From: a virus
DNA: 64,000 bases
IMG/VR virus record: IMGVR_UViG_3300021185_001264
Location: 1-64,000 of that record
Reading direction: 5' to 3' (one strand)
The notes beneath the pieces were generated by a model. It ran no database searches. It was not told the origin of the DNA and saw only the letters and a program-made list of their open reading frames with translations. A program made the position numbers and the translations under genes. Shown piece after piece: positions 51,016-63,164 of this stretch. The stretch's first letter is position 1; each line of letters begins with the position of its first letter.

Positions 51016-51384
51016 TTAGAAGCTAAATGTAGCACCGATGTGAATCTCTTCACGTGCTGTTGCTTCTAGGTTGTACTTTGTCTTTGCATAGTACTCTACA
51101 GAATCCATTGAGCCCATAGTATAGTTTAATTCGAACTCAAGCGTAGGCATAACTTCGATAGTGTTATCTGCTACCAATTCGTTATCCCATATTGCCAACT
51201 CTGTGCTTGTTACAAAGTTCAAGCCTTCAGTTGGCGTAAATGTCAACGCCGGTTCGATGTCAACTGTCATGCGAGCCGCATCTACAGCATAGTTAGCGTC
51301 TATTTCACCACCAAATGACCACATAGAGTCTGCATATGCAGTAGTTGCTGTTAATGCCGCAACTGTTGCGATTACGAGTTTCAT
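51016..51384 (-). CDS. Small exported protein, outer-membrane beta-barrel-like
   Basis: 122 residues with a clear Sec signal peptide (MKLVIATVAALTATTAYA, cut before DS). The mature ~104 residues show about six amphipathic beta strands (GGEIDANYAV, MTVDIEPALTF, LNFVTSTELAIW, TIEVMPTLEFELNYTM, VEYYAKTKYNLEA, EIHIGATFSF) and end with Phe, the usual C-terminal signal of outer membrane proteins. It is short for a full barrel, so it may oligomerise. The gene starts about 25 nt after the tmRNA coding piece and has AAAGGAAAT before the ATG, so it is probably co-transcribed with the tmRNA. A role in changing the infected cell surface (for example exclusion) is speculative. Confidence 0.75.
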   Translation of the reverse strand: MKLVIATVAALTATTAYADSMWSFGGEIDANYAVDAARMTVDIEPALTFTPTEGLNFVTSTELAIWDNELVADNTIEVMPTLEFELNYTMGSMDSVEYYAKTKYNLEATAREEIHIGATFSF

Positions 51385-51458
51385 TAGATTTCCTTTCTTA
51401 TAATTGAAACTTGGTCCGGCATTTTCTGTTCCAAGGCAAGCCGGTCAGCCCGTCAAAT

Positions 51459-51503
51459 TTACGCCGCTAGTGCGTAGTCTGAAGATACAAAGTTATCGTT
51501 TGC
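51459..51503 (-). other. tmRNA tag reading frame ANDNFVSSDYALAA
   Basis: Resume codon GCA at 51503-51501, then 13 more codons and TAA (51461-51459). The peptide starts AND and ends ALAA, as expected for a trans-translation degradation tag recognised by ClpXP-type proteases and SspB-like adaptors. With the Ala charged on the tmRNA the full tag would be 15 residues. Confidence 0.92.
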
Positions 51504-51588
51504 ATTTAGTTTGGTTTCTTGCGTTAACGGAGCTTGCGCCCGGATTCTCCACTTCTCTGCCCTGTCAGTCGATTCCTACTTCAGCCCC

Positions 51589-51670
51589 ATCAAAAATACA
51601 TTGTCTTGGACCCTTGCGAGGTCTGCGTCTCTGCAAAGACACCTTATTGCAGTAAGGCGCAATGTACTTT
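51589..51670 (-). other. Intervening segment of the permuted tmRNA
   Basis: 82 nt between the CCA end and the start of the coding piece. The ends pair (51666-51660 with 51603-51597, 7 bp). Inside are three small hairpins: CCTTA/TAAGG, GTCT/AGAC and GACC/GGTC. In known permuted tmRNAs such a segment is removed after transcription to give the two mature RNAs. Confidence 0.85.
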
Positions 51671-51736
51671 TGGTGGAGCTGTCGGGAGTCGCACCCGAGT
51701 CCTGTCCAGTATTAATCCGCTTCAACGAATCATTAG

Positions 51737-51744
51737 TATTTATA
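51737..51744 (-). promoter_or_regulatory. Late box TATAAATA at the tmRNA start
   Basis: Exact late octamer directly downstream of the -10 of the sigma70-like promoter, so the tmRNA could also be transcribed by late polymerase from almost the same start. Confidence 0.55.
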
Positions 51745-51745
51745 C

Positions 51746-51774
51746 ACTATACGCTATTTTTGAATGGATGTCAA
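51746..51774 (-). promoter_or_regulatory. Sigma70-like promoter of the tmRNA (TTGACA-17-TATAGT)
   Basis: Minus strand TTGACA (51774-51769), 17-nt spacer, TATAGT (51751-51746). The start of RNA would be near 51739, just ahead of the acceptor piece. The -35 lies directly after the stop of the 40-aa gene at 51778. Confidence 0.82.
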
Positions 51775-52931: not shown

Positions 52932-53618
52932 TTATTTAATTTCTGGAAATAACGATTCTGATATGAATGCATCGACATCATCCGAATCAAGACCCAAACT
53001 TTTCATCACATTTGGGGTATGTGGATTCATCTTCTGATGCTCTGCATAATAGTTTTGCGATGCTTTGCCTAAATCACTGTCAGCGTATCCGTTATACTTA
53101 CCAATGTTTTTCTTGTAGTAACACAGACCTTCTTTGGCAACCTTACATATCTGATCGATCTCTGCTGGTTCTTTGACCATACCAGCGGCAATCATGCTAT
53201 CACTGAAGATTGCTTTTGCCCATGGCGGCAGTTCTCGTTCTCTTTTCCATTGTAATGGTTTGGCAATTGTTGCGAAGTGTTCCATCATAGGATGTTCTGA
53301 ATTAGACGTAGAAGAGAAATCATAAAATGCACCTGTCATCTTATTGGCACCTGCAATCACATCAAACCCGTATATTGGTCCGTCATTATGTGTATGAGGA
53401 AAGACACATACATGCATCATCCACAGCTTCTTCTCTTCACGCATATCGACCACATCAATGTGTGCCCTACGATAATTGTTATTTGACCATACTCTGTTTA
53501 CCCAACCAGGCTGATTGAATCTATCCATACCAGGCTCACGTATTTCAGTAGCATCTGATGATAGCTGTTCGATTAGATTGTTTTGAAGATCAATCAAACT
53601 ATTCCATATAATAGACAT
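52932..53618 (-). CDS. Ferredoxin-dependent bilin reductase (PcyA/PcyX-like)
   Basis: 228 residues. The family core is clear: WSNNNYRRAHIDVVDMREEK, LWMMHVCVFPHTHNDGPIYG, FDVIAGANKMTGAFYDFSS. His69 and Asp86 are 17 residues apart, the same spacing as the catalytic His88/Asp105 of PcyA, and the remembered phage enzyme PebS lacks that His. It therefore belongs nearer the PcyA/PcyX side, where viral PcyX enzymes turn biliverdin into a reduced bilin. Electrons would come from host ferredoxin. The start overlaps the stop of the small membrane gene (TAATG); heme oxygenase lies one gene upstream. Confidence 0.88.
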   Translation of the reverse strand: MSIIWNSLIDLQNNLIEQLSSDATEIREPGMDRFNQPGWVNRVWSNNNYRRAHIDVVDMREEKKLWMMHVCVFPHTHNDGPIYGFDVIAGANKMTGAFYDFSSTSNSEHPMMEHFATIAKPLQWKRERELPPWAKAIFSDSMIAAGMVKEPAEIDQICKVAKEGLCYYKKNIGKYNGYADSDLGKASQNYYAEHQKMNPHTPNVMKSLGLDSDDVDAFISESLFPEIK

Positions 53619-53764
53619 TACAGCACCGTTGCTCCGACTACTGTCGTAACTATTATTAAGACGTATAAACCATACATCATTATACTTAATTTTTCAAGTC
53701 TTTTCTGTCTCTCTCCAAAAGCAACCATCAATCTTTCGAATGATTCATCCAATTCGCTCTTCAT
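53618..53764 (-). CDS. 48-aa one-helix membrane protein inside the bilin operon
   Basis: 48 residues from the ATG at 53764, which has GAGGAG seven nt upstream; a longer in-frame start at 53833 has no such site and overlaps heme oxygenase more. The N-terminal half is a charged helix (MKSELDESFERLMVAFGERQ), and the C-terminal half one membrane helix (MMYGLYVLIIVTTVVGATVL). It overlaps the heme oxygenase end by 20 nt and the reductase start by one base pair of codons (TAATG). No family recognised; it could tether or regulate the bilin enzymes. Confidence 0.7.
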   Translation of the reverse strand: MKSELDESFERLMVAFGERQKRLEKLSIMMYGLYVLIIVTTVVGATVL

Positions 53765-54302
53765 GCAATAACTCCTCAAATAGTCTAATCGCAAATGCAA
53801 AGCATTTATTTGCTTCATCTGCCATATTATCATTCAACAACAGTCGAACATTCTGCTTCATCTCTTCTTTGTTTTCAAACTGATACATGGTACCACTACC
53901 AGGAACACGTTTTGCAATGATAGCACCACCGTACATATCTCCAAAGTGTCTTACATATAAGTGCGAGATGATTCCGTCTACGTCTTCGTTCATTAAAAGG
54001 TTTTCAATGTGTCCGACATATTCTTGGGTTGACTTGCATATGAGTTCGCTATAGGTAAATCCGTAGATTTCCTCAAGTTCATGCATGTCATCTATGATCT
54101 TTTTTGCCCTAAAAATTGACCTGAACTCTTCTGGAAATGCGAGTTCACGCAACGCTGATTCGAGAACAACGTAGTTCTGGGACTGATTGATTAAGTATCT
54201 GTAATATAGAAAGGGATCAATATTACCACTGAGTAATATCTTGGCAAAATCTTTACGTTCTGCTGATCTATGGTTTTCTGCCGTTAGCTGTTTTAAATTC
54301 AA
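53745..54302 (-). CDS. Heme oxygenase
   Basis: 185 residues. The N-terminal LTAENHRSAER contains the proximal heme ligand His11, and the distal helix reads HLYVRHFGDMYGGAIIAKRV with the G-D-x-x-G-G motif (121-126). The enzyme opens heme to biliverdin, iron and CO, giving the substrate of the reductase two genes downstream. The start is TTG at 54302 with GGAG seven nt upstream; an in-frame stop two codons earlier rules out a longer form. The leader carries a 9-bp inverted repeat. Confidence 0.9.
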   Translation of the reverse strand: MNLKQLTAENHRSAERKDFAKILLSGNIDPFLYYRYLINQSQNYVVLESALRELAFPEEFRSIFRAKKIIDDMHELEEIYGFTYSELICKSTQEYVGHIENLLMNEDVDGIISHLYVRHFGDMYGGAIIAKRVPGSGTMYQFENKEEMKQNVRLLLNDNMADEANKCFAFAIRLFEELLHEERIG

Positions 54303-54356: not shown

Positions 54357-54364
54357 TATTTATC
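54357..54364 (-). promoter_or_regulatory. Late-like box GATAAATA ahead of heme oxygenase
   Basis: Minus-strand GATAAATA (one mismatch), overlapping the kinase stop codon, 55 nt before the TTG start. It could drive the bilin operon late. Confidence 0.35.
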
Positions 54365-55058
54365 TAGTCTTTTTAGCCTTCTCAGATTTAATCCATCTCT
54401 TGGCTACAGCATTATCTGGTTCTGCATTCACAAACTTGGTGATCTCTCTATAGGCACGGGTAGTTTCTTTTTGATAGTCTTTGCCTTCAGAGTTATCTAC
54501 AACAGTAAACTTTTGCTTTCCGAACATAGTCTGAAAAGAACCAATATTCTTTTGAACTGTAGTCCAGTACTTTTCTACTTCATCAGCAGGCAGTGTTCTT
54601 GCTCTCGCTTTGTTACGTGCTTGTGCTGTGGCTAAGTCAGTGTTAACGAAAATCATTGCAACATCGTAACCTAGCTTTTTGAGTTCTTTTGCTTGGTTTG
54701 TCAGCTTTGCTGTGTCTTTACCTGTACCATCGATACATAGACCTAAACGACCTTTTATGTACATCGCTTGCTTAGTCGCTGTCAGCTTCTTGGCTTTGCC
54801 TCGTAACTCTTGACCTTTAACGGAGAAGATGTTATCCGGATCCATTTCCATACCAGCTTTCTTCATAGCTGATTCAAATGCATCGTCTGAGTTCACAACC
54901 TTAAATCCAAGTGCTGGAAGTCCAGTTTTGCCTACAATGAATGATTTGCCAGAGCCAGGTCCACCGGCTAAGAATACTGCTTTGAAGATTGCAGGATCAT
55001 TAACGCCTTCTTCGATTTGTTTTAGTTCTTCTTTAAGATAGTTTTCAAACGATAACAC
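54360..55058 (-). CDS. P-loop kinase / zeta-toxin-like protein
   Basis: 232 residues. The Walker A motif is at about residues 30-39 (LAGGPGSGKS), followed by VVNSDDAFESAMKKAGMEMD and a Walker B-like LGLCIDGTGKD, then NKARARTLPADEVEKYW with the arginine-rich lid of polynucleotide-kinase or zeta-toxin-type enzymes. Such genes are frequent in marine T4-like phages, usually of unknown substrate. The start is GTG at 55058 with AAGGA before it. It could phosphorylate nucleic acid or a small molecule in the cytoplasm. Confidence 0.8.
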   Translation of the reverse strand: MLSFENYLKEELKQIEEGVNDPAIFKAVFLAGGPGSGKSFIVGKTGLPALGFKVVNSDDAFESAMKKAGMEMDPDNIFSVKGQELRGKAKKLTATKQAMYIKGRLGLCIDGTGKDTAKLTNQAKELKKLGYDVAMIFVNTDLATAQARNKARARTLPADEVEKYWTTVQKNIGSFQTMFGKQKFTVVDNSEGKDYQKETTRAYREITKFVNAEPDNAVAKRWIKSEKAKKTR

Positions 55059-55090: not shown

Positions 55091-55648
55091 TTATTTATAA
55101 AAAATGTGAGACTCAATTCTGCTAGTTTTACTATATGCTTTAGACCAATAAGGATTAACATATGATGCATGATACATCGTGGCGCCGTCCGTAATGTCTC
55201 GTTCAATGCCATAGTTTTTCATTACCCACTCAGCGTTATACATCGCTTCTTTAAATTTTACTTTATCGTGAGGAGTATCGTTCTTACCGTCACAGTACCA
55301 AGAGAATTGGCACTTATTACGAATAGGATTACCTCTGCTGTTTAAGTGAGACTGATACACTACATCACATATCGTATCTGGATACTTTTCGCTGTAGACA
55401 CGATTCATTGTAACCATGCCTACTGCTTCTTGTCCTAGAGTAGAATCACTTCTTGCTTCATGGTAGATATTAAGAGCCATACATTGTAACTGCTCCTGAT
55501 ACTGTAGGTCTGCAATCTCTGCTTCTATTACTGCATTACGTTCAATGGCAGCCTGTTCTTGTGCTTTAAGTTCTTCGACAGTTAATATCGTAACAGCCAC
55601 TATGGTTATTAAGGATAACGATCCTGTAAGAATACTCGATAGTTTCAT
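55091..55648 (-). CDS. SleB/CwlJ-type cell wall hydrolase, probable endolysin
   Basis: 185 residues. The N-terminal ~27 residues are a hydrophobic signal or anchor (LTGSLSLITIVAVTILTVEE), followed by a short helix and the Hydrolase_2 domain: MALNIYHEARSDSTLGQEAV with catalytic Glu64, MNRVYSEKYPDTICDVVYQS, CQFSWYCDGKNDTPHDK and the C-terminal TDGATMYHASYVNPYW. The family cuts peptidoglycan glycan strands. The uncut N-terminal segment suggests export and membrane anchoring before lysis (signal-arrest-release type). It has its own sigma70-like promoter. Confidence 0.88.
   Translation of the reverse strand: MKLSSILTGSLSLITIVAVTILTVEELKAQEQAAIERNAVIEAEIADLQYQEQLQCMALNIYHEARSDSTLGQEAVGMVTMNRVYSEKYPDTICDVVYQSHLNSRGNPIRNKCQFSWYCDGKNDTPHDKVKFKEAMYNAEWVMKNYGIERDITDGATMYHASYVNPYWSKAYSKTSRIESHIFYK
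55092..55099 (-). promoter_or_regulatory. Late promoter box ahead of the P-loop kinase
   Basis: Minus-strand exact TATAAATA overlapping the endolysin stop codon, 33 nt before the kinase GTG. Confidence 0.6.
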
Positions 55649-55744: not shown

Positions 55745-57796
55745 TTATTTAGTCGTTGGGCGATACACTCCATCCCAATCTTTAGGCAGTTCTCTAGTCT
55801 TCATCTCTTTGCATCGATCAATCCATACGTCATAATATCCGTCCATAGTGCCTAAAAAGCACCCCTTTAAGTCATCACAGAACTTGATTGCCATGTCAAA
55901 TTTCTGCATTCGATATAAATCTAGCATCTTTATGTGCTGTTTAGTTTCAAATACATATGCAGAGTTTTCATTCCACCAAGAGTGTTCTCCTAGAACAGTG
56001 AAAATTCGTACACCTTCGTTCTTGCCCTTTACAGCAATACAGTCTAGTTCAAGTGTGGCAAATACATCATCGATCTCTTTTGCCGTCTCTTCTCCAATAA
56101 TAGTTTTCACGCCATATCCTTTCGTTTGTCCTTCGAGTCTGGCTGCCAAATTCACTGCATCTCCTAACACAGAGTAGTCGAACCTTTGCTCAGACCCCAT
56201 ATTACCAACAACGACTGCGCCGCTATTGATTCCTACGCCTATATTTATTGGTAACAAACCGTCACTCTCTAACTCAGCATTTAGGACTTCTAATGCTTCG
56301 TACATTTGTACGGACGTCAAACACGCTTTTCTTTCTTGCTCTTCTACATCAAGAGGAGCATTCCAGAAAGCCATAATACAATCGCCCATATACTTGTCAA
56401 TAGTACCCTCATTCTCCATAATGATATTAGTCATAGGAGTTAAGAATCTATTCACAAGTTCTGTCAGACCCTGTGGATCCGTCTTATATTGCTCTGAGAT
56501 GGGTGTAAATCCACGTATATCACAGAACAAAAATGTCATATGTTTAGTCTCTCCACCGAGTTGCAGTAACTCAGGATTCTTTTGTAGTTTTTCTACCATA
56601 GGTGCTGATAGATATGTGCCAAACTGTTTCTTAATTCGCATCTTGGCGAAGTACTCTTGCCCGTATTTGACTCCATACACGTGAGCAAACACTAGTATAG
56701 CCATCGCACCTTGCATCATTATGATATATAATTCTGCATAATTGTTGAACCAGTATATAGGAAAGTATATCGATGATCCGATCAGCAATAGCGGTGGTAC
56801 CCAACCAAATCTCACATAACTCAATCCAACTATTAGTATACCTAATCCTAGAATAGTTGCAAGTTTAGCAAAATCAGCAAGAGGTGGAGTTACGATGTTG
56901 TATTGGTTTTTGACTGAGGTAAATGCTCTTGCAGTTACATCATGTCCATATGCGGCACCTGATGCTGTCGGCACTGGGTTAGATATTCCGTCTGCTGTTA
57001 CACCCACGAATACTGTTGCACCTTTTAAATCGTCAAACTCTGTAGTTAGATCGTATCGTTTAAAGTCATAGTTTGGATTTATCCATATACGGCTTATTGG
57101 ATCTGTATTGATTGTAGGAAATCCTTTGACACGAACTGCCTGTACTCCAAACTCATTGCTCTTAACCTGAAACGTATTTGACCCAGTGTATGCCTTGAAT
57201 ATCTCTAAGATGATTGATGGGTAGAGTTTATCTTGTACGCCAGCAATCATAGGTAATCTTCGAACTACTCCGTCAATCTCAGGCAATGTGTTTGCAATGC
57301 CTATGCCAGTAGCGGCATTTTCATACTTCTCTAAGTTTGCGGCTATGCCAGGATAATTGTAAATATAATCCAAAGCATCACCACCAACCTGTACAATAGC
57401 TGTACTGTATGCGGATCTATTCTGAGCCTTATTGCTAGGGAAGTGAGAAAGAATGACTCCGTTCGGAAGCATGAGCGTGAAGCCTTCGTCTTCACCTGTT
57501 CGATCTTCTTCTGGAAATGATAGATTAAATACGATAACACCTGCATTCGCTTGACGCAATCTGAGGATTAAATCCCCATAAATGTTTCTTGGTAGTGGGT
57601 ATTGTCCATGTACTTCTAAAGTCTTCTCCGAGATGTCTACGAGAACGACATCCTCAATGAATTGCTTTTCCTTTACGATCAACTGGTCACTGATTCTCAG
57701 ATCAATGCTCTGAAGCAGTGTAGGATTTAATATTGTTAGCCACGTTAGAGTTAACGTAGTGATGATAGCGAATAATGGCGAAAGCAGTATTTTCAT
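55745..57796 (-). CDS. CHASE2-transmembrane-class III nucleotide cyclase
   Basis: 683 residues. N-terminal anchor helix (8-28), CHASE2 sensor in the periplasm (about 30-305: VVLVDISEKTLEVHGQYPLP, VIVFNLSFPEEDR, GATVFVGVTADGISNPVPT), then three membrane helices (about 307-375) and a cytoplasmic cyclase domain (about 415-600). Catalytic residues are visible: metal Asp426 (LFCDIRGFT) and Asp472 (KYMGDCIMAFWNAP), base-recognition Lys468 and Asp546 (SVLGDAVNLAARLE), and Asn549/Arg553. Lys and Asp at the base sites point to ATP, so cAMP is the likely product. It appears intact. GAGAGG precedes the ATG. It follows the curli/FecR genes in the same direction. Confidence 0.9.
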   Translation of the reverse strand: MKILLSPLFAIITTLTLTWLTILNPTLLQSIDLRISDQLIVKEKQFIEDVVLVDISEKTLEVHGQYPLPRNIYGDLILRLRQANAGVIVFNLSFPEEDRTGEDEGFTLMLPNGVILSHFPSNKAQNRSAYSTAIVQVGGDALDYIYNYPGIAANLEKYENAATGIGIANTLPEIDGVVRRLPMIAGVQDKLYPSIILEIFKAYTGSNTFQVKSNEFGVQAVRVKGFPTINTDPISRIWINPNYDFKRYDLTTEFDDLKGATVFVGVTADGISNPVPTASGAAYGHDVTARAFTSVKNQYNIVTPPLADFAKLATILGLGILIVGLSYVRFGWVPPLLLIGSSIYFPIYWFNNYAELYIIMMQGAMAILVFAHVYGVKYGQEYFAKMRIKKQFGTYLSAPMVEKLQKNPELLQLGGETKHMTFLFCDIRGFTPISEQYKTDPQGLTELVNRFLTPMTNIIMENEGTIDKYMGDCIMAFWNAPLDVEEQERKACLTSVQMYEALEVLNAELESDGLLPINIGVGINSGAVVVGNMGSEQRFDYSVLGDAVNLAARLEGQTKGYGVKTIIGEETAKEIDDVFATLELDCIAVKGKNEGVRIFTVLGEHSWWNENSAYVFETKQHIKMLDLYRMQKFDMAIKFCDDLKGCFLGTMDGYYDVWIDRCKEMKTRELPKDWDGVYRPTTK

Positions 57797-57821
57797 CTTG
57801 AACCTCTCAAGTCGTTACATA

Positions 57822-57986
57822 CTATTTATCAATCTTTACACGAGGTCTCCAGTGTGGATTTTCGACATATTCTAGCTTTTTCGTTGGTCTGTACATGAAC
57901 TCTCCATTGTCCATTTTTAGCTTCTCGACCTTTCCAGTGTTTACCCACTTTGATGTCCAACAGACTACAGGAGATTTCTTAGTCAT
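57822..57986 (-). CDS. 54-aa hypothetical protein between curlin fusion and cyclase
   Basis: 54 residues, basic, Trp- and Lys-rich (MTKKSPVVCWTSKWVNTGKV, then EKLKMDNGEFMYRPTKKL). The ATG at 57986 overlaps the end of the curlin-fusion gene by 8 nt, and the stop is 25 nt before the cyclase ATG. No signal peptide, so cytoplasmic. Function unknown; too short for common ORF cut-offs. Confidence 0.65.
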   Translation of the reverse strand: MTKKSPVVCWTSKWVNTGKVEKLKMDNGEFMYRPTKKLEYVENPHWRPRVKIDK

Positions 57987-59265
57987 TTTGATATATCGTT
58001 AAGTTGCAACCACCGGTGGCATTACATGTACCATTCACGCCAGAACCGTCTGTCATGGTATGTGGTAAAGTGTATGTTTTATTAGATGCTCCTGCTTGAT
58101 TTAGTTCGAAGTTCCAAGGCTCTGATCCATCTAGTGCAATTGTGGCTTCGTGGTCTCCACTTCCAGACTGAACCACATCAACCTCATGACTGTCTCCCTC
58201 GACATCTAAGTCTAAGTAATGACTGCCTGAACCAGTCTGACTGACTAGTACATCGTTTAAATCTCCATCAATACGTACAAACGCTCCTTTGTCTCCACTG
58301 CCTTTTTGTATAAGATCAAATTCATTGCTGTCACCTAGAATAGCGATTTCGGTATACCCATGAGCGCCTAGATCCATGTCTTGATCAATGTCGATAGCGT
58401 TGGTATTCCCTAGTATCGATAGTAATACGTAACTGGGACCACCTGCTTGCTCTATGAATATGTCATTACTAGAACCGTCAATGTCCATTTCAATAGTGTT
58501 TCCTTGTCCGTTGTCTGCCAGTACTTGAGCGGCGGCCACTCTCGTTGCTTGTGCTGTTGTTAGTCCTGAAGATCCATATACTGGAGTAGGAGCAGAAGTT
58601 GTAGTAGATGATGCTAAGAAATTTCCCATGTTATCTGCGTAAGTGTGTGTTGACGTTAACTGTCCGTATCCAAACGTCACAATTACCATTCCATCTCCAT
58701 AATCCCATACGTACCAACTATACCAAGTTGACGTTGAACTATTTGCGGCCATTCCTTCACCACCGCTTGCTGTGAATAGGTAATCTGGACCTGGCAGAAC
58801 GTTTTCACTTGAGGTGCTTGACGCATAATCTCCAATTGCCACTGAGCCGTAGCAATTATTACATCCGTTTGATAGAGATATGCTTCCCACGCTCATCACG
58901 TTTTCTATAAGAGATTCGATATTACCGATTCTATTCGTTGCACCATTAGGTGCCGCAATGATTAGTGTTCCACCACCGTCAACATAGCTGTCGTATACGT
59001 TTCTACAGTTACTACCACAGTTTGACGTACCTGCTATATCAATAACCATGTCCATATTACTCACATCGTTTGAACTCACCGATGTCGTATTACTGCCTGA
59101 TACAGTCCAGCCTGCATCCTCTAATATACTTTTTAGGTTAGCGTAATGTGCGCTGGTAGCATTGGTATAATATATAAACACACTATCTGCATAAGCATTT
59201 GTTGGAATGAATAGTAGTAATATGAGTGCTAAACTACTGAGACTGCGTAATATTGATGATAACAT
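57979..59265 (-). CDS. Exported protein: Rossmann-like domain fused to curlin-type repeats
   Basis: 428 residues from the ATG at 59265 (GGAGG five nt upstream); a GTG two codons earlier would overlap that site. Signal peptide to about residue 26 (ALILLLFIPTNAYA). Residues ~28-220 resemble a class I glutamine amidotransferase-like/ThuA fold without catalytic residues (VFIYYTNATSAHYANLKSIL, MDMVIDIAG, YVDGGGTLIIAAPNG, DGMVIVTFGYGQ). Residues ~245-425 contain five to six curlin-like repeats (G-x-x-N-x-x-x-x-x-Q): SSNDIFIEQAG, NTNAIDIDQD, DSNEFDLIQKGSG, DLNDVLVSQTGSG, DSHEVDVVQSGSG and WNFELNQAGASN. The start overlaps the FecR gene by 32 nt. A nucleator or cell-anchored curli subunit is a reasonable guess. 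Confidence 0.8.
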   Translation of the reverse strand: MLSSILRSLSSLALILLLFIPTNAYADSVFIYYTNATSAHYANLKSILEDAGWTVSGSNTTSVSSNDVSNMDMVIDIAGTSNCGSNCRNVYDSYVDGGGTLIIAAPNGATNRIGNIESLIENVMSVGSISLSNGCNNCYGSVAIGDYASSTSSENVLPGPDYLFTASGGEGMAANSSTSTWYSWYVWDYGDGMVIVTFGYGQLTSTHTYADNMGNFLASSTTTSAPTPVYGSSGLTTAQATRVAAAQVLADNGQGNTIEMDIDGSSNDIFIEQAGGPSYVLLSILGNTNAIDIDQDMDLGAHGYTEIAILGDSNEFDLIQKGSGDKGAFVRIDGDLNDVLVSQTGSGSHYLDLDVEGDSHEVDVVQSGSGDHEATIALDGSEPWNFELNQAGASNKTYTLPHTMTDGSGVNGTCNATGGCNLTIYQND

Positions 59266-60340
59266 CGCCACCTCCGTTTAGTGTGATCAGTGCTGGCACC
59301 GCATCTTTGTACATATTTACTTCTCCGTCGGTATCTCTAGTAGTCGTGACACTTGTGATGTGTGTCGAACTTTCACTAAAAACACCAATTGTTTCTTCAT
59401 CATAGTATGCCTGTACGATATCTCTATACTGATTATATGTAGGCAACACTGGATCTATTTCTAACTGTTCACCTCGCAACATTGCGGTGGCATCTAAAAT
59501 GTTTACAAGAAAATCGATGTCTAGTCGGTTGATGTCGAGTTCTAGAAATTCTAATTTATCTTCTTCCAAATTATCGTCATTAAGTTCTGAGTATTCTAGT
59601 AGGTCACTGTCCAAATATTCTGAAGCTTCAGCTTGTGCGATATATCCTACACCCTTCAACTCATCAGGTGGTGCAATGATTAGCATATTGTCAATACCTC
59701 GACCGTCAAGATCAATAATCATGGGCTTCGATGGTAATGACATTCCATCAGACACTAGTGTTGCTTGAAAAGCTTGATTGAGTATTACCATACCAATATC
59801 AGTCGCTACCTCGATTTCTCCTGTCCAACATGGATCACCATTTGAGGGACAAGTAGGAAGAAGTATTACTAGACTCCTGCCTAATTCGTCTACCGTCATA
59901 GTAAAATCTGTTCCTCTTACCGATATAGTAGCAGTGGGTGTTCTAAGTTTGACATTTTCTCTAGAATTTGCGGCAATGGCACCAGAAGAATATCTCACTG
60001 TTCCCAGTGCAACATTCATAGCAAGTTTGCCTGTTCCCGCATTGGGATCGTAAATGAAGTCATCAATCACTAGCGTACTTTGCTCAGATATGCTTACCTT
60101 AGTATCATCTTCAAAAGTAAGACCCATTTTGGTCTTAGCTGTAGATATCTCATCATTCATTGAGATGCCAACACCTTTACGAGATTCGATTATCTCGCTT
60201 TCACCTCTTTTTATCTGTGCGGCATTACCAGTTTGCTCAGTAACGCTTCCTACTTCATCCACACTAGCACTAGCAAATGTGTTTAGTGTAATCAATAAAA
60301 GTGATAGTAAAACACTAGTTCTGTTTAATGTCAATGACAT
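59234..60340 (-). CDS. Exported FecR-domain protein
   Basis: 368 residues. Signal peptide to about residue 25 (LLSLLLITLNTFASA). The FecR domain is at about 30-150: RKGVGISMNDEISTAKTKMG, LTFEDDTKVSISEQSTLVID, VALGTVRYSSGAIAANSREN, VKLRTPTATISVRGTDFTM. The rest (LDRGI-type segments, acidic EYSELNDDNLEEDKLEFLEL) is not recognised. FecR-type domains occur in sigma-regulator systems but also in exported proteins beside CHASE2 cyclases. There is no transmembrane anti-sigma part here. It overlaps the curlin gene upstream by 26 nt and the fusion gene downstream by 32 nt. Confidence 0.85.
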   Translation of the reverse strand: MSLTLNRTSVLLSLLLITLNTFASASVDEVGSVTEQTGNAAQIKRGESEIIESRKGVGISMNDEISTAKTKMGLTFEDDTKVSISEQSTLVIDDFIYDPNAGTGKLAMNVALGTVRYSSGAIAANSRENVKLRTPTATISVRGTDFTMTVDELGRSLVILLPTCPSNGDPCWTGEIEVATDIGMVILNQAFQATLVSDGMSLPSKPMIIDLDGRGIDNMLIIAPPDELKGVGYIAQAEASEYLDSDLLEYSELNDDNLEEDKLEFLELDINRLDIDFLVNILDATAMLRGEQLEIDPVLPTYNQYRDIVQAYYDEETIGVFSESSTHITSVTTTRDTDGEVNMYKDAVPALITLNGGGDVIINITQSQ

Positions 60341-61004
60341 TACTGTTGCCGTCTACTGTCATAGTAATTTTAGGCGAATCGTTACCGTCTTGCAATATAT
60401 CAATACTATTGAAACTACTTGAAGCTGTGCCACCTACCGTAATAGTGTTAACAGCATCAGCGGCATCCAACTCCATATTAATTGAGTTGTAGTCACCATT
60501 TGCAACGATAGTAGTTTTGGTATCCACTACAGCAACTTCAGTTGTACAGCCAGCAATAGTTCCAGATTGTGTTACTGAACTACCACTACCACTTACAGTA
60601 CCAGTAGTAGCCTTTCCGCTGCCGTCGTTAGTTCCACAGACAGTTACTAAGTTACTATCACCAGTTATTGTTGAAGTGATTTCAGTGCCAGTAGAGGCAA
60701 TACCTATTACCGTTTCGTTACTGTCACCAGTATTGACGATTGCAATATCTGTGTCATTGGATCCAGCGGCAGTAGATATGTCTGTCTTGTTGCTGTTACC
60801 TGTTTGAGTGATATCAATATCTTGGCTGTTACCTGTTAATGTTGTTGCCGTAGTTGAATTACCAACTAAGTTGCCATTTCCTGTTTGGACAATGTCAATA
60901 GTAGATGAACTACCAGCCTGATCTATATACACATCACTAGCAAACGCTGGCGCTGTGATTGCACTTAATAGTGCTAAAATTAAAAGTTTCTTATTAAAAC
61001 TCAT
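60315..61004 (-). CDS. Curlin-repeat protein (CsgA/CsgB-like)
   Basis: 229 residues. Signal peptide to about residue 22 (LLILALLSAITAPAFA). The mature chain contains curlin-like repeats with the N-x-x-x-I-x-Q-x-G pattern: DVYIDQAGSSSTIDIVQTGN, GNSQDIDITQTGNSNKTDIS, TDIAIVNTGDSNETVI, and at the C-terminus FNSIDILQDGN plus VDGNSNVIDIKQN. The middle part is less regular and carries two Cys. Such repeats stack into a beta solenoid and form amyloid fibres outside the cell. AAGGGAAAG precedes the ATG. The 82-nt gap to csgG holds a small GTCC/GGAC hairpin but no clear promoter. Confidence 0.85.
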   Translation of the reverse strand: MSFNKKLLILALLSAITAPAFASDVYIDQAGSSSTIDIVQTGNGNLVGNSTTATTLTGNSQDIDITQTGNSNKTDISTAAGSNDTDIAIVNTGDSNETVIGIASTGTEITSTITGDSNLVTVCGTNDGSGKATTGTVSGSGSSVTQSGTIAGCTTEVAVVDTKTTIVANGDYNSINMELDAADAVNTITVGGTASSSFNSIDILQDGNDSPKITMTVDGNSNVIDIKQN

Positions 61005-61086
61005 ATTACTTTCCCTTAAATGTCCACCTGGACTTATTTGTTATGTTAAATTATTCTCCTCTTTTTTCCATATCAAAACAAAAATG

Positions 61087-61875
61087 CTATTTAACGAAGT
61101 CCCAGTATCCTTTTCTGGCACCTTCTTTAATTAACTCTACAACCGATTGCTCGATTGCTACTCTGACTGCGTAGTTTACAGGTTCATTGATAGTGTGTCC
61201 CATCTCTGCCTCTAAACTATTAGTTCCCATATCAAAAAATCTAAAAAATGTCATGGAGGTACCTGTGCTTATAATCGTCTTTGTTGTTGAGACACTTATT
61301 AACACTTCTCCTGACTGTACACTCACCATTCTCATAGTAATAGTTACGATGTCTTGACGATACTGAGTACTAGGACCAACTCCTAAATACCTTGCTCCTG
61401 CTCCTCCAGTCAAAACATTCGAATCATAACCTATGATGCCGCCTTCTACTAATACTCCAGCGAACAACATAGGTCTTAATGCTCTTTCATCTCCGACAGA
61501 TGCTCTACTTTGTCTGATTATCTGCCGTTCTTTTGTTAAATTCTCTAGCCCTACTCTTTCTACTACCTGAAACCATTCACCATTACCTACTTCTTGTAAA
61601 GCCTTAATCAGCCAAACTTCAGCACCTTGAGTTACCGCAGTACTTATATTTGCCATTCTTTCACTCGGCTTTCGTTGACCTGTTTTGTCTTCAAAGCCAT
61701 ACACTGCAACTACTGCTTTGCCTGTTGATGGCCCCTTTATAGTCAAAAACTCAGTATTCTCGTTTTTGATTACTTTAGCAGGTTCCGGCTCAGGCATAAA
61801 TCCAAAGTCTTCAGTAAGTGTAGCACATCCGCTAGTCAGTAGCAAAAGTGCTGATATCATAAAAAAGTGTTTCAT
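61087..61875 (-). CDS. csgG: CsgG-type curli secretion channel lipoprotein
   Basis: 262 residues (E. coli CsgG 277). The lipobox LLTSGC puts the lipidated Cys at 17. The core is clearly CsgG: VVAVYGFEDKTGQRKP, ANISTAVTQGAEVWLIKALQ, WFQVVERVGLENLTKERQII, LFAGVLVEGGIIGYDSNVLT and GGAGARYLGVGPSTQYRQDI, then SGEVLISVSTTKTI. CsgG forms a nonameric outer-membrane pore for curli subunits. In the pore loop the Asn is kept, but the position of E. coli Phe56 is Ile and Tyr51 is replaced. The C-terminus stops right after GYWDFVK, lacking the E. coli tail. The start overlaps the csgF stop (TAATG). Confidence 0.93.
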   Translation of the reverse strand: MKHFFMISALLLLTSGCATLTEDFGFMPEPEPAKVIKNENTEFLTIKGPSTGKAVVAVYGFEDKTGQRKPSERMANISTAVTQGAEVWLIKALQEVGNGEWFQVVERVGLENLTKERQIIRQSRASVGDERALRPMLFAGVLVEGGIIGYDSNVLTGGAGARYLGVGPSTQYRQDIVTITMRMVSVQSGEVLISVSTTKTIISTGTSMTFFRFFDMGTNSLEAEMGHTINEPVNYAVRVAIEQSVVELIKEGARKGYWDFVK

Positions 61876-62354
61876 TAGAATGCAAAATCTCCAACTGGTA
61901 CATCGAACTCAGAAATTATATCACCGTTTGAGTCCTTTATAGTTACATATATTCTTCCGTCTAGTCTCATCCATGATATCTCATCGCCAAAAGGTGACTC
62001 TGCAATATACCATTCTCCGTCAACTGTTCCTTCACCTGTCTCACCAAAAAGTTGGTCCGCAATATTCTTAGATAGAGTAGCATAAATTCTTGATTCCAGA
62101 TTGTTCTGGAATTTGTATGCGTTAGTACTTTTACGTTCTCTCTCTAATCTGTCTTCCTCTGCTTTCGCCTCGTCCTTTAATTCCTTTTTTCTGTTTGCTT
62201 GTATTTGCTCAATGGTCAAAATGTGCGAACTGTATCCTTGACCGTTAAAGGCTGGGGACAAAAAGTCATGCGTCAACTCACTTGCGTTTACCAGATTTGG
62301 TATTAACATTACTGACAGTGTTAGTGTTAGTCCTTTCAATAGTCTCTTTTTCAT
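61875..62354 (-). CDS. csgF: CsgF-type curli assembly factor
   Basis: 159 residues (E. coli CsgF 138). Signal peptide to about residue 24. The mature N-terminus (ELTHDFLSPAFNGQGYSSHI) corresponds to the segment of CsgF that plugs into the CsgG channel (F-x-N-P-x-F-G-G in E. coli). A charged helix (KKELKDEAKAEEDRLERERK) and a C-terminal beta part (DGRIYVTIKDSNGDIISEFD) follow. CsgF links CsgG to the nucleator at the cell surface. It starts inside the end of the upstream gene (77-nt overlap) and ends in csgG. Confidence 0.85.
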   Translation of the reverse strand: MKKRLLKGLTLTLSVMLIPNLVNASELTHDFLSPAFNGQGYSSHILTIEQIQANRKKELKDEAKAEEDRLERERKSTNAYKFQNNLESRIYATLSKNIADQLFGETGEGTVDGEWYIAESPFGDEISWMRLDGRIYVTIKDSNGDIISEFDVPVGDFAF

Positions 62355-62604
62355 TTTTCTCTTTTTCCTGTTTTTCTAGGACAAGGTCTAACTTCGTTTT
62401 AAGTCTAATCAGATCGTTGTCCAGCATACGCACTCTATCGATTAAAGCGATAAGCGTCATATGCGATTCATCTATAACGGGATTAACTTCCTCAGTTACC
62501 CATTTCCAAATATAATATATAAAATACCCTAAACCGCCAGCGGCAATTATTGGGAACCCATACTGACTTACAGCCTGGGCTAAATCTAGCTCTACTACAT
62601 CCAT
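62278..62604 (-). CDS. Holin-like small membrane protein 1
   Basis: 108 residues: one N-terminal membrane helix (YGFPIIAAGGLGYFIYYIWK), then a coiled coil (HMTLIALIDRVRMLDNDLIR, LKTKLDLVLEKQEKEKN) and a Lys/Thr/Asn-rich tail. It shares the G-F-P-I-x-x-A-x-x-G-G-x-x-x-(F/Y) start and an L-(I/D)-x-R-(V/I)-x-x-(L/M)-(D/N)-N-(D/E) helix with the 62819-63097 protein, so they are probably paralogues. The design (one helix plus coiled coil) resembles small phage holins and BhlA/YvrJ-like proteins. The role is not established. Its 3' end overlaps csgF by 77 nt. Confidence 0.7.
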   Translation of the reverse strand: MDVVELDLAQAVSQYGFPIIAAGGLGYFIYYIWKWVTEEVNPVIDESHMTLIALIDRVRMLDNDLIRLKTKLDLVLEKQEKEKNEKETIERTNTNTVSNVNTKSGKRK

Positions 62605-62816
62605 TACTTATTTTGATCCGTATCTGTTGTAGTTCTTATATCGTCTGGGTGTTTAACAAACGTGACTTGCTCATATACTTGACCGTCTCGTTCAATTTTT
62701 GATATCGATGCCATAAACTTATCGCCATGCTTGATCTTTACCAACTCAGGCTTTAGTTCTCTGTCCATCATGATATGCTCACCTACCAAATCAAAGGTGT
62801 AATCTACAAATAGCAT
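62604..62816 (-). CDS. Small hypothetical protein, 70 aa
   Basis: 70 residues, beta-rich and charged, with no signal peptide (VDYTFDLVGEHIMMDRELKP, FMASISKIERDGQVYEQVTF). I do not recognise it. It lies between the two holin-like genes with a TAATG overlap downstream and a 2-nt gap upstream, so it is part of the same operon. Confidence 0.6.
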   Translation of the reverse strand: MLFVDYTFDLVGEHIMMDRELKPELVKIKHGDKFMASISKIERDGQVYEQVTFVKHPDDIRTTTDTDQNK

Positions 62817-62818
62817 TG

Positions 62819-63097
62819 TTAATCCTTCCTTGCATCCTGTTGTCCATCCGCTCTTGAAATGCGGTTTAAGTCAGGTGAAATTCCAAACGCATGGCATACT
62901 GAAACATCAATTCTAACTACTTCATTGTTCATCGTTTTAATTCTATTGTCTAGTGCCTGAGCGAAACCTCTTTGAGTTTTAATATCTCCGAGTACTCCAT
63001 CCAGAATAAACTTAAGTGTGAGAAACACAAAGAAACCTCCAGCTAAGGCAGAGGCTATTGGAAAGCCCACATCAGCTACAAACTGCAACATTTCCAT
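62819..63097 (-). CDS. Holin-like small membrane protein 2
   Basis: 92 residues: membrane helix near the N-terminus (VGFPIASALAGGFFVFLTLK), then a helical region (AQALDNRIKTMNNEVVRIDV) and a charged tail. Probable paralogue of the 62278-62604 protein. First gene after the late promoter 63134-63141 and so the first gene of the operon that continues into csgF/csgG. Confidence 0.7.
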   Translation of the reverse strand: MEMLQFVADVGFPIASALAGGFFVFLTLKFILDGVLGDIKTQRGFAQALDNRIKTMNNEVVRIDVSVCHAFGISPDLNRISRADGQQDARKD

Positions 63098-63133
63098 ATT
63101 GTATTCCTATGAGTTGTTTTCATTATATACGAT

Positions 63134-63141
63134 TATTTATA
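63134..63141 (-). promoter_or_regulatory. Late promoter of the curli operon
   Basis: Exact TATAAATA on the minus strand, 37 nt before the ATG at 63097, directly after a terminator. No terminator or strong promoter is visible between here and the end of the cyclase gene at 55745, so this box could drive all ten genes. Confidence 0.7.
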
Positions 63142-63142
63142 C

Positions 63143-63164
63143 GAAAAGGGCGCCTGAGCGCCCT
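63143..63164 (-). terminator. Rho-independent terminator after 63213-63581
   Basis: Minus strand AGGGCGC, loop TCAG, GCGCCCT followed by TTTT. The 7-bp GC-rich stem lies 49 nt after the membrane protein stop and insulates the curli operon. Confidence 0.8.

Follow-up and report, generated by a model that had tools for sequence, protein, structure and literature searches.

A conserved late curli module in an uncultured T4-like phage

We analysed a curli module of ten genes in a window of 64,000 nt, which covers most of the 66,783 bp of an IMG/VR virus record. The module is real, late and conserved, and it has already been published for other marine phages; its presence in a further T4-like lineage is new. 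Judged from the sequences, several other features appear to be new as well: the swapping of heads on the second curlin-repeat protein (curlin 2), the status of FecR as an exported protein, the neighbourhood of FecR and CHASE2 genes, a counterpart of the module in Hyphomonas, and the missing cNMP-binding domains. The ten genes, read leftward between 63097 and 55745, follow the order given in Table 1 and either overlap or are separated by short gaps. The intergenic spacing is -77 to +25 nt, with the sole exception of an 82-nt gap between csgG and the first curlin gene.

Table 1. Features of the curli module and its promoter region, in the order of transcription
Feature	Position	Strand	Basis or remark
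Terminator-like hairpin	63147..63164	-	just upstream of the late promoter; consensus match only
T4-type late promoter box TATAAATA	63134..63141	-	36 nt upstream of the gene for the 92-aa protein
92-aa small membrane protein, phrog_18771 paralogue 1, holin-like	62819..63097	-	PHROG/Pfam comparison
70-aa protein, function not assigned	62604..62816	-	ORF list, locus comparison
108-aa protein, phrog_18771 paralogue 2, holin-like	62278..62604	-	weak match to holin phrog_4898, E 1e-3
CsgF homologue, signal peptide	61875..62354	-	PF10614, E 1.7e-10
CsgG homologue, lipobox LTSGC, predicted outer-membrane secretion pore	61087..61875	-	PF03783, E 3.5e-54
Curlin-repeat fibre protein 1, signal peptide	60315..61004	-	PF07012 (Curlin_rpt), E 3e-5
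Exported FecR-domain protein, 368 aa	59234..60340	-	FecR, E 2.3e-8
Curlin-repeat protein 2: GATase/ThuA-like head, curlin strands, C-terminal cysteine pair	57979..59271	-	Curlin_rpt, E 2.7e-6
54-aa ORF	57822..57986	-	locus comparison
CHASE2 class III adenylate cyclase	55745..57796	-	CHASE2, 2e-30; Guanylate_cyc, 8e-18

The phage is uncultured and T4-like. T4-type PHROG matches in the window were found for baseplate wedge, tail tube cap, hub and DNA end protector proteins; among phage proteins, those most similar to the wedge protein come from Sinorhizobium phages (38-39% identity). An alphaproteobacterial host is a fair guess, and the habitat is probably marine. The possibility raised by the earlier note, that a bacterial contig was mis-joined to a phage one, was ruled out by the matching GC content (0.399 in the module vs 0.393 in the window), the T4-type baseplate genes and flanks, and 82 other viral loci with the module or a part of it. 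Elsewhere in the window, a permuted tmRNA of the alphaproteobacterial type with the tag ANDNFVSSDYALAA is located at 51368-51763 (minus strand). No riboswitch family scored above the gathering threshold in the window; phage Melnitz was reported with a glutamine riboswitch.

All but one of the domains proposed in the earlier note were confirmed by Pfam, with CsgG, CsgF, curlin, FecR, CHASE2 and Guanylate_cyc above the gathering cut-offs, whereas the Rossmann-like head that it ascribed to curlin 2 comes from a low-confidence model. The genes it named are all present; the first three genes of the unit, encoding the 92-, 70- and 108-aa proteins, had been overlooked. The set has the sequence features of curli (type VIII) secretion, namely a CsgG lipoprotein, CsgF and two PF07012 proteins with signal peptides. 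CsgG is also similar to the E. coli CsgG structures (E 6e-52), and the N-terminal segment of CsgF is predicted to bind CsgG. No Pfam matches to CsgE, CsgC or CsgD were observed among the ten module proteins. These accessories are dispensable for fibres; CsgE is a secretion adaptor. Sets of csgG, csgF and curlin genes are conventionally read as amyloid export systems. Among the viral loci compared, relatives of the 54-aa ORF were found in two close contigs only.

The T4-type late promoter suggested previously for this unit is well founded. Of 47 homologous first genes, 17 have a box of the form [TA]ATAAATA in front of them, as against 1.2% of background stretches. The window contains 13 late boxes with 6.6 expected, a number reached in 2 of 100 shuffles, and eight of the 13 sit 26-46 nt before gene starts. 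No late box was observed before csgG, fecR or the second curlin gene in the module phages (0/203). The presence of a box before the first gene, together with its absence before these internal genes, points to late, read-through transcription and supports the assignment of the module as a T4-type late transcription unit. The number of terminator-like sites in this region is what chance would give (6 vs 7.0 expected).

A scan of viral contigs yielded at least 599 matching stretches and at least 596 relatives of CsgG. At the 82 loci besides the window, csgF was found in 81 and fecR in 76. The order csgF-csgG-curlin-fecR is constant, followed usually by a head-bearing curlin and the cyclase, and thus the co-occurrence and gene order that the earlier note proposed to look for in viral contigs were indeed observed. 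The csgF and csgG genes were described in pelagimyophages (PMC7029224, 2020), and a module HK-CsgF-CsgG-CsgA/B-FecR-CsgA/B-AC, expressed in metatranscriptomes, in podo- and myophages (PMC9599517, 2022). The layout of the latter is identical to that of the window. The earlier note mentioned csgG/csgF-type genes in some marine phages, but not the full set with FecR and cyclase, which is already seen in PMC9599517, HTVC008M and Melnitz. HTVC008M (NC_020484) contains the holin-like pair, csgF, csgG, a curlin gene, a FecR-type gene, a head-bearing curlin gene and the cyclase in the same order as the window; CsgG is 46% and the cyclase 37.5% identical. The curlin 2 head of HTVC008M is a PA14 domain, whereas that of the window is GATase-like. 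Melnitz (MZ577097, a Methylophilales phage) has the same gene set and order, with FecR and the cyclase annotated; its curlin 2, unlike that of the window, has no separate head. A lysis role was proposed for the Melnitz module, which was said to lack csgA and csgB (PMC9004378, 2022), although two curlin-repeat genes are annotated in the record.

The two holin-like proteins at the start of the unit are paralogues, both assigned to phrog_18771. Their small size and hydrophobic N-terminus would fit holins, and a match to a holin PHROG, though a weak one, was obtained for 17 of 32 homologues (best E 3.9e-6). Relatives of the 92-aa protein among phage records were found in HTVC008M and Melnitz only. 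A short, divergent "histidine kinase" (HK) was named upstream of csgF in PMC9599517. This position is occupied by phrog_18771 proteins, none of whose 32 members matches any Pfam kinase family, HisKA and HATPase included. Thus the published HK, identified here by position and size alone, is probably a small phrog_18771 protein, and the kinase label is probably wrong. The placement of the holin-like pair varies: many phages carry it on the opposite strand or at the opposite end of the module, and on three very large phage contigs (53, 286 and 364 kb) it is found at the 3' end. In about 15 loci a protein of about 100 aa is encoded before csgF, mostly within 110 nt. It was rejected as a candidate second cyclase of these phages, since its similarity to the phage cyclase is confined to the C-terminal tail.

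Several genes lie beyond the 3' end of the module, all on the minus strand. A SleB-type cell wall hydrolase gene (55091-55648) directly follows the cyclase gene and has its own perfect sigma70-like promoter-like site, TTGACA-16-TATAAT (55721-55694). A zeta-toxin-like kinase gene (54360-55058; PF06414, E 1.8e-9) is preceded by a late box at 55092-55099. The region 52932-54302 encodes a heme oxygenase (PF01126, E 9.6e-16) and a ferredoxin-dependent bilin reductase (PF05996, E 8.6e-13), a pair resembling the marine-phage pigment cassette ho1-pcyX. A heme oxygenase gene also occurs in 24 further curli loci, 1.1-4.3 kb upstream of csgF. Being near but not adjacent, it was not accepted as a part of the module.

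In the sequences listed from different phages, the second curlin retains its curlin strands and a pair of cysteines close to the C-terminus, and its N-terminal part varies. PA14 heads were found in HTVC008M (E 2.7e-6) and at one other locus (E 3.5e-10), and F5/8-C heads at three loci (E 8e-10 to 2e-9). Several phages have curlin 2 without any head. The head in the window is an alpha/beta domain with weak resemblance to GATase1, ThuA and IFT52 folds (best E 5e-3); the underlying model is partial and of low confidence (pLDDT 61). PA14 and F5/8-C domains frequently bind sugars. This, together with the swapping of heads between phages, suggests that curlin 2 may be an adhesin with an exchangeable head. 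In the literature outside subscription journals, no paper describing the head swapping was found. At three loci outer-membrane-barrel-like proteins of 682-1445 aa, recognized by eye, follow fecR in place of curlin 2.

The FecR protein of the module carries a signal peptide. Across 45 homologues, the sole family common to all is the FecR domain. The partial model of the window protein (pLDDT 80) opens with a signal helix; for its N-terminal fold, structural matches were obtained to the periplasmic signalling domain of PupR (6ovk, E 6e-5) and to related anti-sigma proteins. The cytoplasmic anti-sigma domain is missing, and a scan of neighbouring genes revealed neither a sigma factor nor a TonB receptor. 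By its sequence, the phage FecR is an exported protein and not an anti-sigma iron regulator. Its C-terminus is modelled as a small beta domain with a curlin-like end strand, and the ending [IVL]x[IVLF]x[QN] occurs in 68 of 70 FecR homologues as against 10 of 645 other ORFs. FecR was rejected as a full curlin subunit, since none of the 45 proteins matches Curlin_rpt at an E limit of 10 and the domain modelled is a small beta domain. Hence the likeness to curlin is claimed for the end strand only, which could simply be a normal terminal beta strand.

The CHASE2 cyclase is intact, as had been noted from the sequence. Alignment to solved cyclases identified all five catalytic residues: the metal-binding aspartates D426 and D472, the adenine-binding lysine K468, and N549 and R553 of the transition state. 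The lysine is of the type usual in adenylate cyclases. In 385 alphaproteobacterial genomes, a FecR gene lies within 5 kb of at least 28 of the 151 CHASE2 matches listed, with about 0.5 expected if 4-Mb genomes are presumed. Thus FecR neighbours CHASE2 in Alphaproteobacteria about 50 times above chance. A FecR/CHASE2-kinase operon was reported to control biofilm in Burkholderia (PMC5192318). It resembles the phage module in having an exported FecR gene beside a CHASE2 sensor; however, its CHASE2 domain is on a histidine kinase, its FecR carries LysM, and no curli genes are described.

The earlier note had the phage make its host export amyloid, and possibly cAMP signals, late in infection. Of this, late transcription was upheld, as was a curli export set that looks complete; cAMP signalling is problematic in a SAR11 setting, but may still operate in the host of this phage. 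The cNMP-binding domain PF00027 is absent from 58 of the 60 genomes in the family of the "uncultured Candidatus Pelagibacter sp." MAG, with positive controls found, and thus cAMP would have no classical receptor there. PF00211 (class III cyclase) is likewise absent from 58 of the 60 genomes, again with positive controls found. PF00027 was found in none of 21 curli-phage records, some of which are fragments. In two genomes from the Pelagibacter family, FecR and CHASE2 genes lie 2.3 kb apart, yet the search for a class III cyclase domain found none there.

Bacterial curli (type VIII secretion) operons share csgF, csgG and curlin genes with the phage module. The latter, however, has no CsgE or CsgD and additionally contains FecR and the CHASE2 cyclase. 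A survey of curli operon diversity (Dueholm 2012) mentions neither a cyclase nor phages. Among 80 bacterial-genome loci, FecR and a CHASE2 cyclase beside curli genes were observed only in the Hyphomonas sp. TMED17 MAG, where csgF, csgG, curlin, fecR and the CHASE2 cyclase gene have the same order as in the phage. In the class and order sampled, no further genome among the matches listed has FecR equally close to curli genes. The locus of this single MAG is on a 705-kb contig with ordinary bacterial genes on both sides, its GC content (0.505) matches that of the flanks (0.52-0.53), and it has no holin-like genes. In the CsgG tree phages and Hyphomonas split from other bacteria with support 99, and in the cyclase tree they form one clade with support 98; both trees have long branches.

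The likeliest reading, to which we assign an even chance, is that the module produces a late curli-type surface fibre gluing infected cells, debris or virions to neighbours. Late in infection, one operon would be switched on to build the fibre. By homology, the CsgG lipoprotein would make the outer-membrane pore with CsgF docked inside, and the two curlin-repeat proteins would be exported and then polymerise. The anatomy of curlin 2 suggests that its head would be shown on the fibre and bind an outside target, for example sugars carried by neighbouring cells or by particles. FecR, exported and with its curlin-like end strand, could couple to the CHASE2 domain that the membrane cyclase exposes in the periplasm. 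This pairing would be a bacterial inheritance, and the cyclase would report the state of export or of the fibre to the cytoplasm as cAMP. The phage would benefit as the infected cell, debris and progeny virions are held near new hosts. Several observations count against such a fibre. Firstly, no clumping was seen in Melnitz-infected cultures (PMC9004378). Secondly, CsgE is absent from the ten proteins, and no experiment showing fibres from any phage curli module was found in the literature. Finally, the FecR and curlin 2 models are partial, the head in the window has weak matches, and the cNMP-binding domain is mostly missing from the Pelagibacter family and was not found in the curli phages.

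The lysis role already suggested for Melnitz (PMC9004378) seems unlikely here. The CsgG/CsgF pore and the two holin-like proteins would depolarise or open the envelope and so time lysis, with the curlins and the cyclase as accessories. This agrees with a late unit that opens with two small membrane proteins, whose homologues often match a holin PHROG, and that is directly followed by a SleB-type hydrolase gene. However, a pore alone needs neither curlins nor FecR, yet most phages keep both; moreover, the hydrolase has its own promoter-like site and the holin-like pair is not fixed in strand or position. Superinfection exclusion, in which fibres coat the infected cell and keep out competing phages, was suggested in PMC9599517 and would use the same genes for the same surface fibres, but it is distinctly improbable, as late expression is late for exclusion and the variable heads point to outward binding. 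Import through CsgG of siderophores or cofactors, with FecR regulating iron uptake (PMC7029224, PMC9599517), would suit the heme oxygenase genes near the module in many phages, but is very improbable given a FecR with a signal peptide and no anti-sigma domain, scanned neighbouring genes that include neither a sigma factor nor a TonB receptor, and CsgF and curlins left unexplained.

Returning to the surface fibre, a more specific version of it is tentative and rather doubtful: display of the fibre with exchanged heads, combined with an inherited FecR-CHASE2 export sensor. In hosts lacking the receptor, the cyclase would then work in some novel way, such as draining ATP, acting through a non-classical receptor or supplying cAMP to neighbours. 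A great many viral contigs contain curli modules (at least 599 matching stretches), and the swapped heads, the FecR-CHASE2 link and the bacterial operon of the same layout make the ideas of sibling capture, lysis and import testable.
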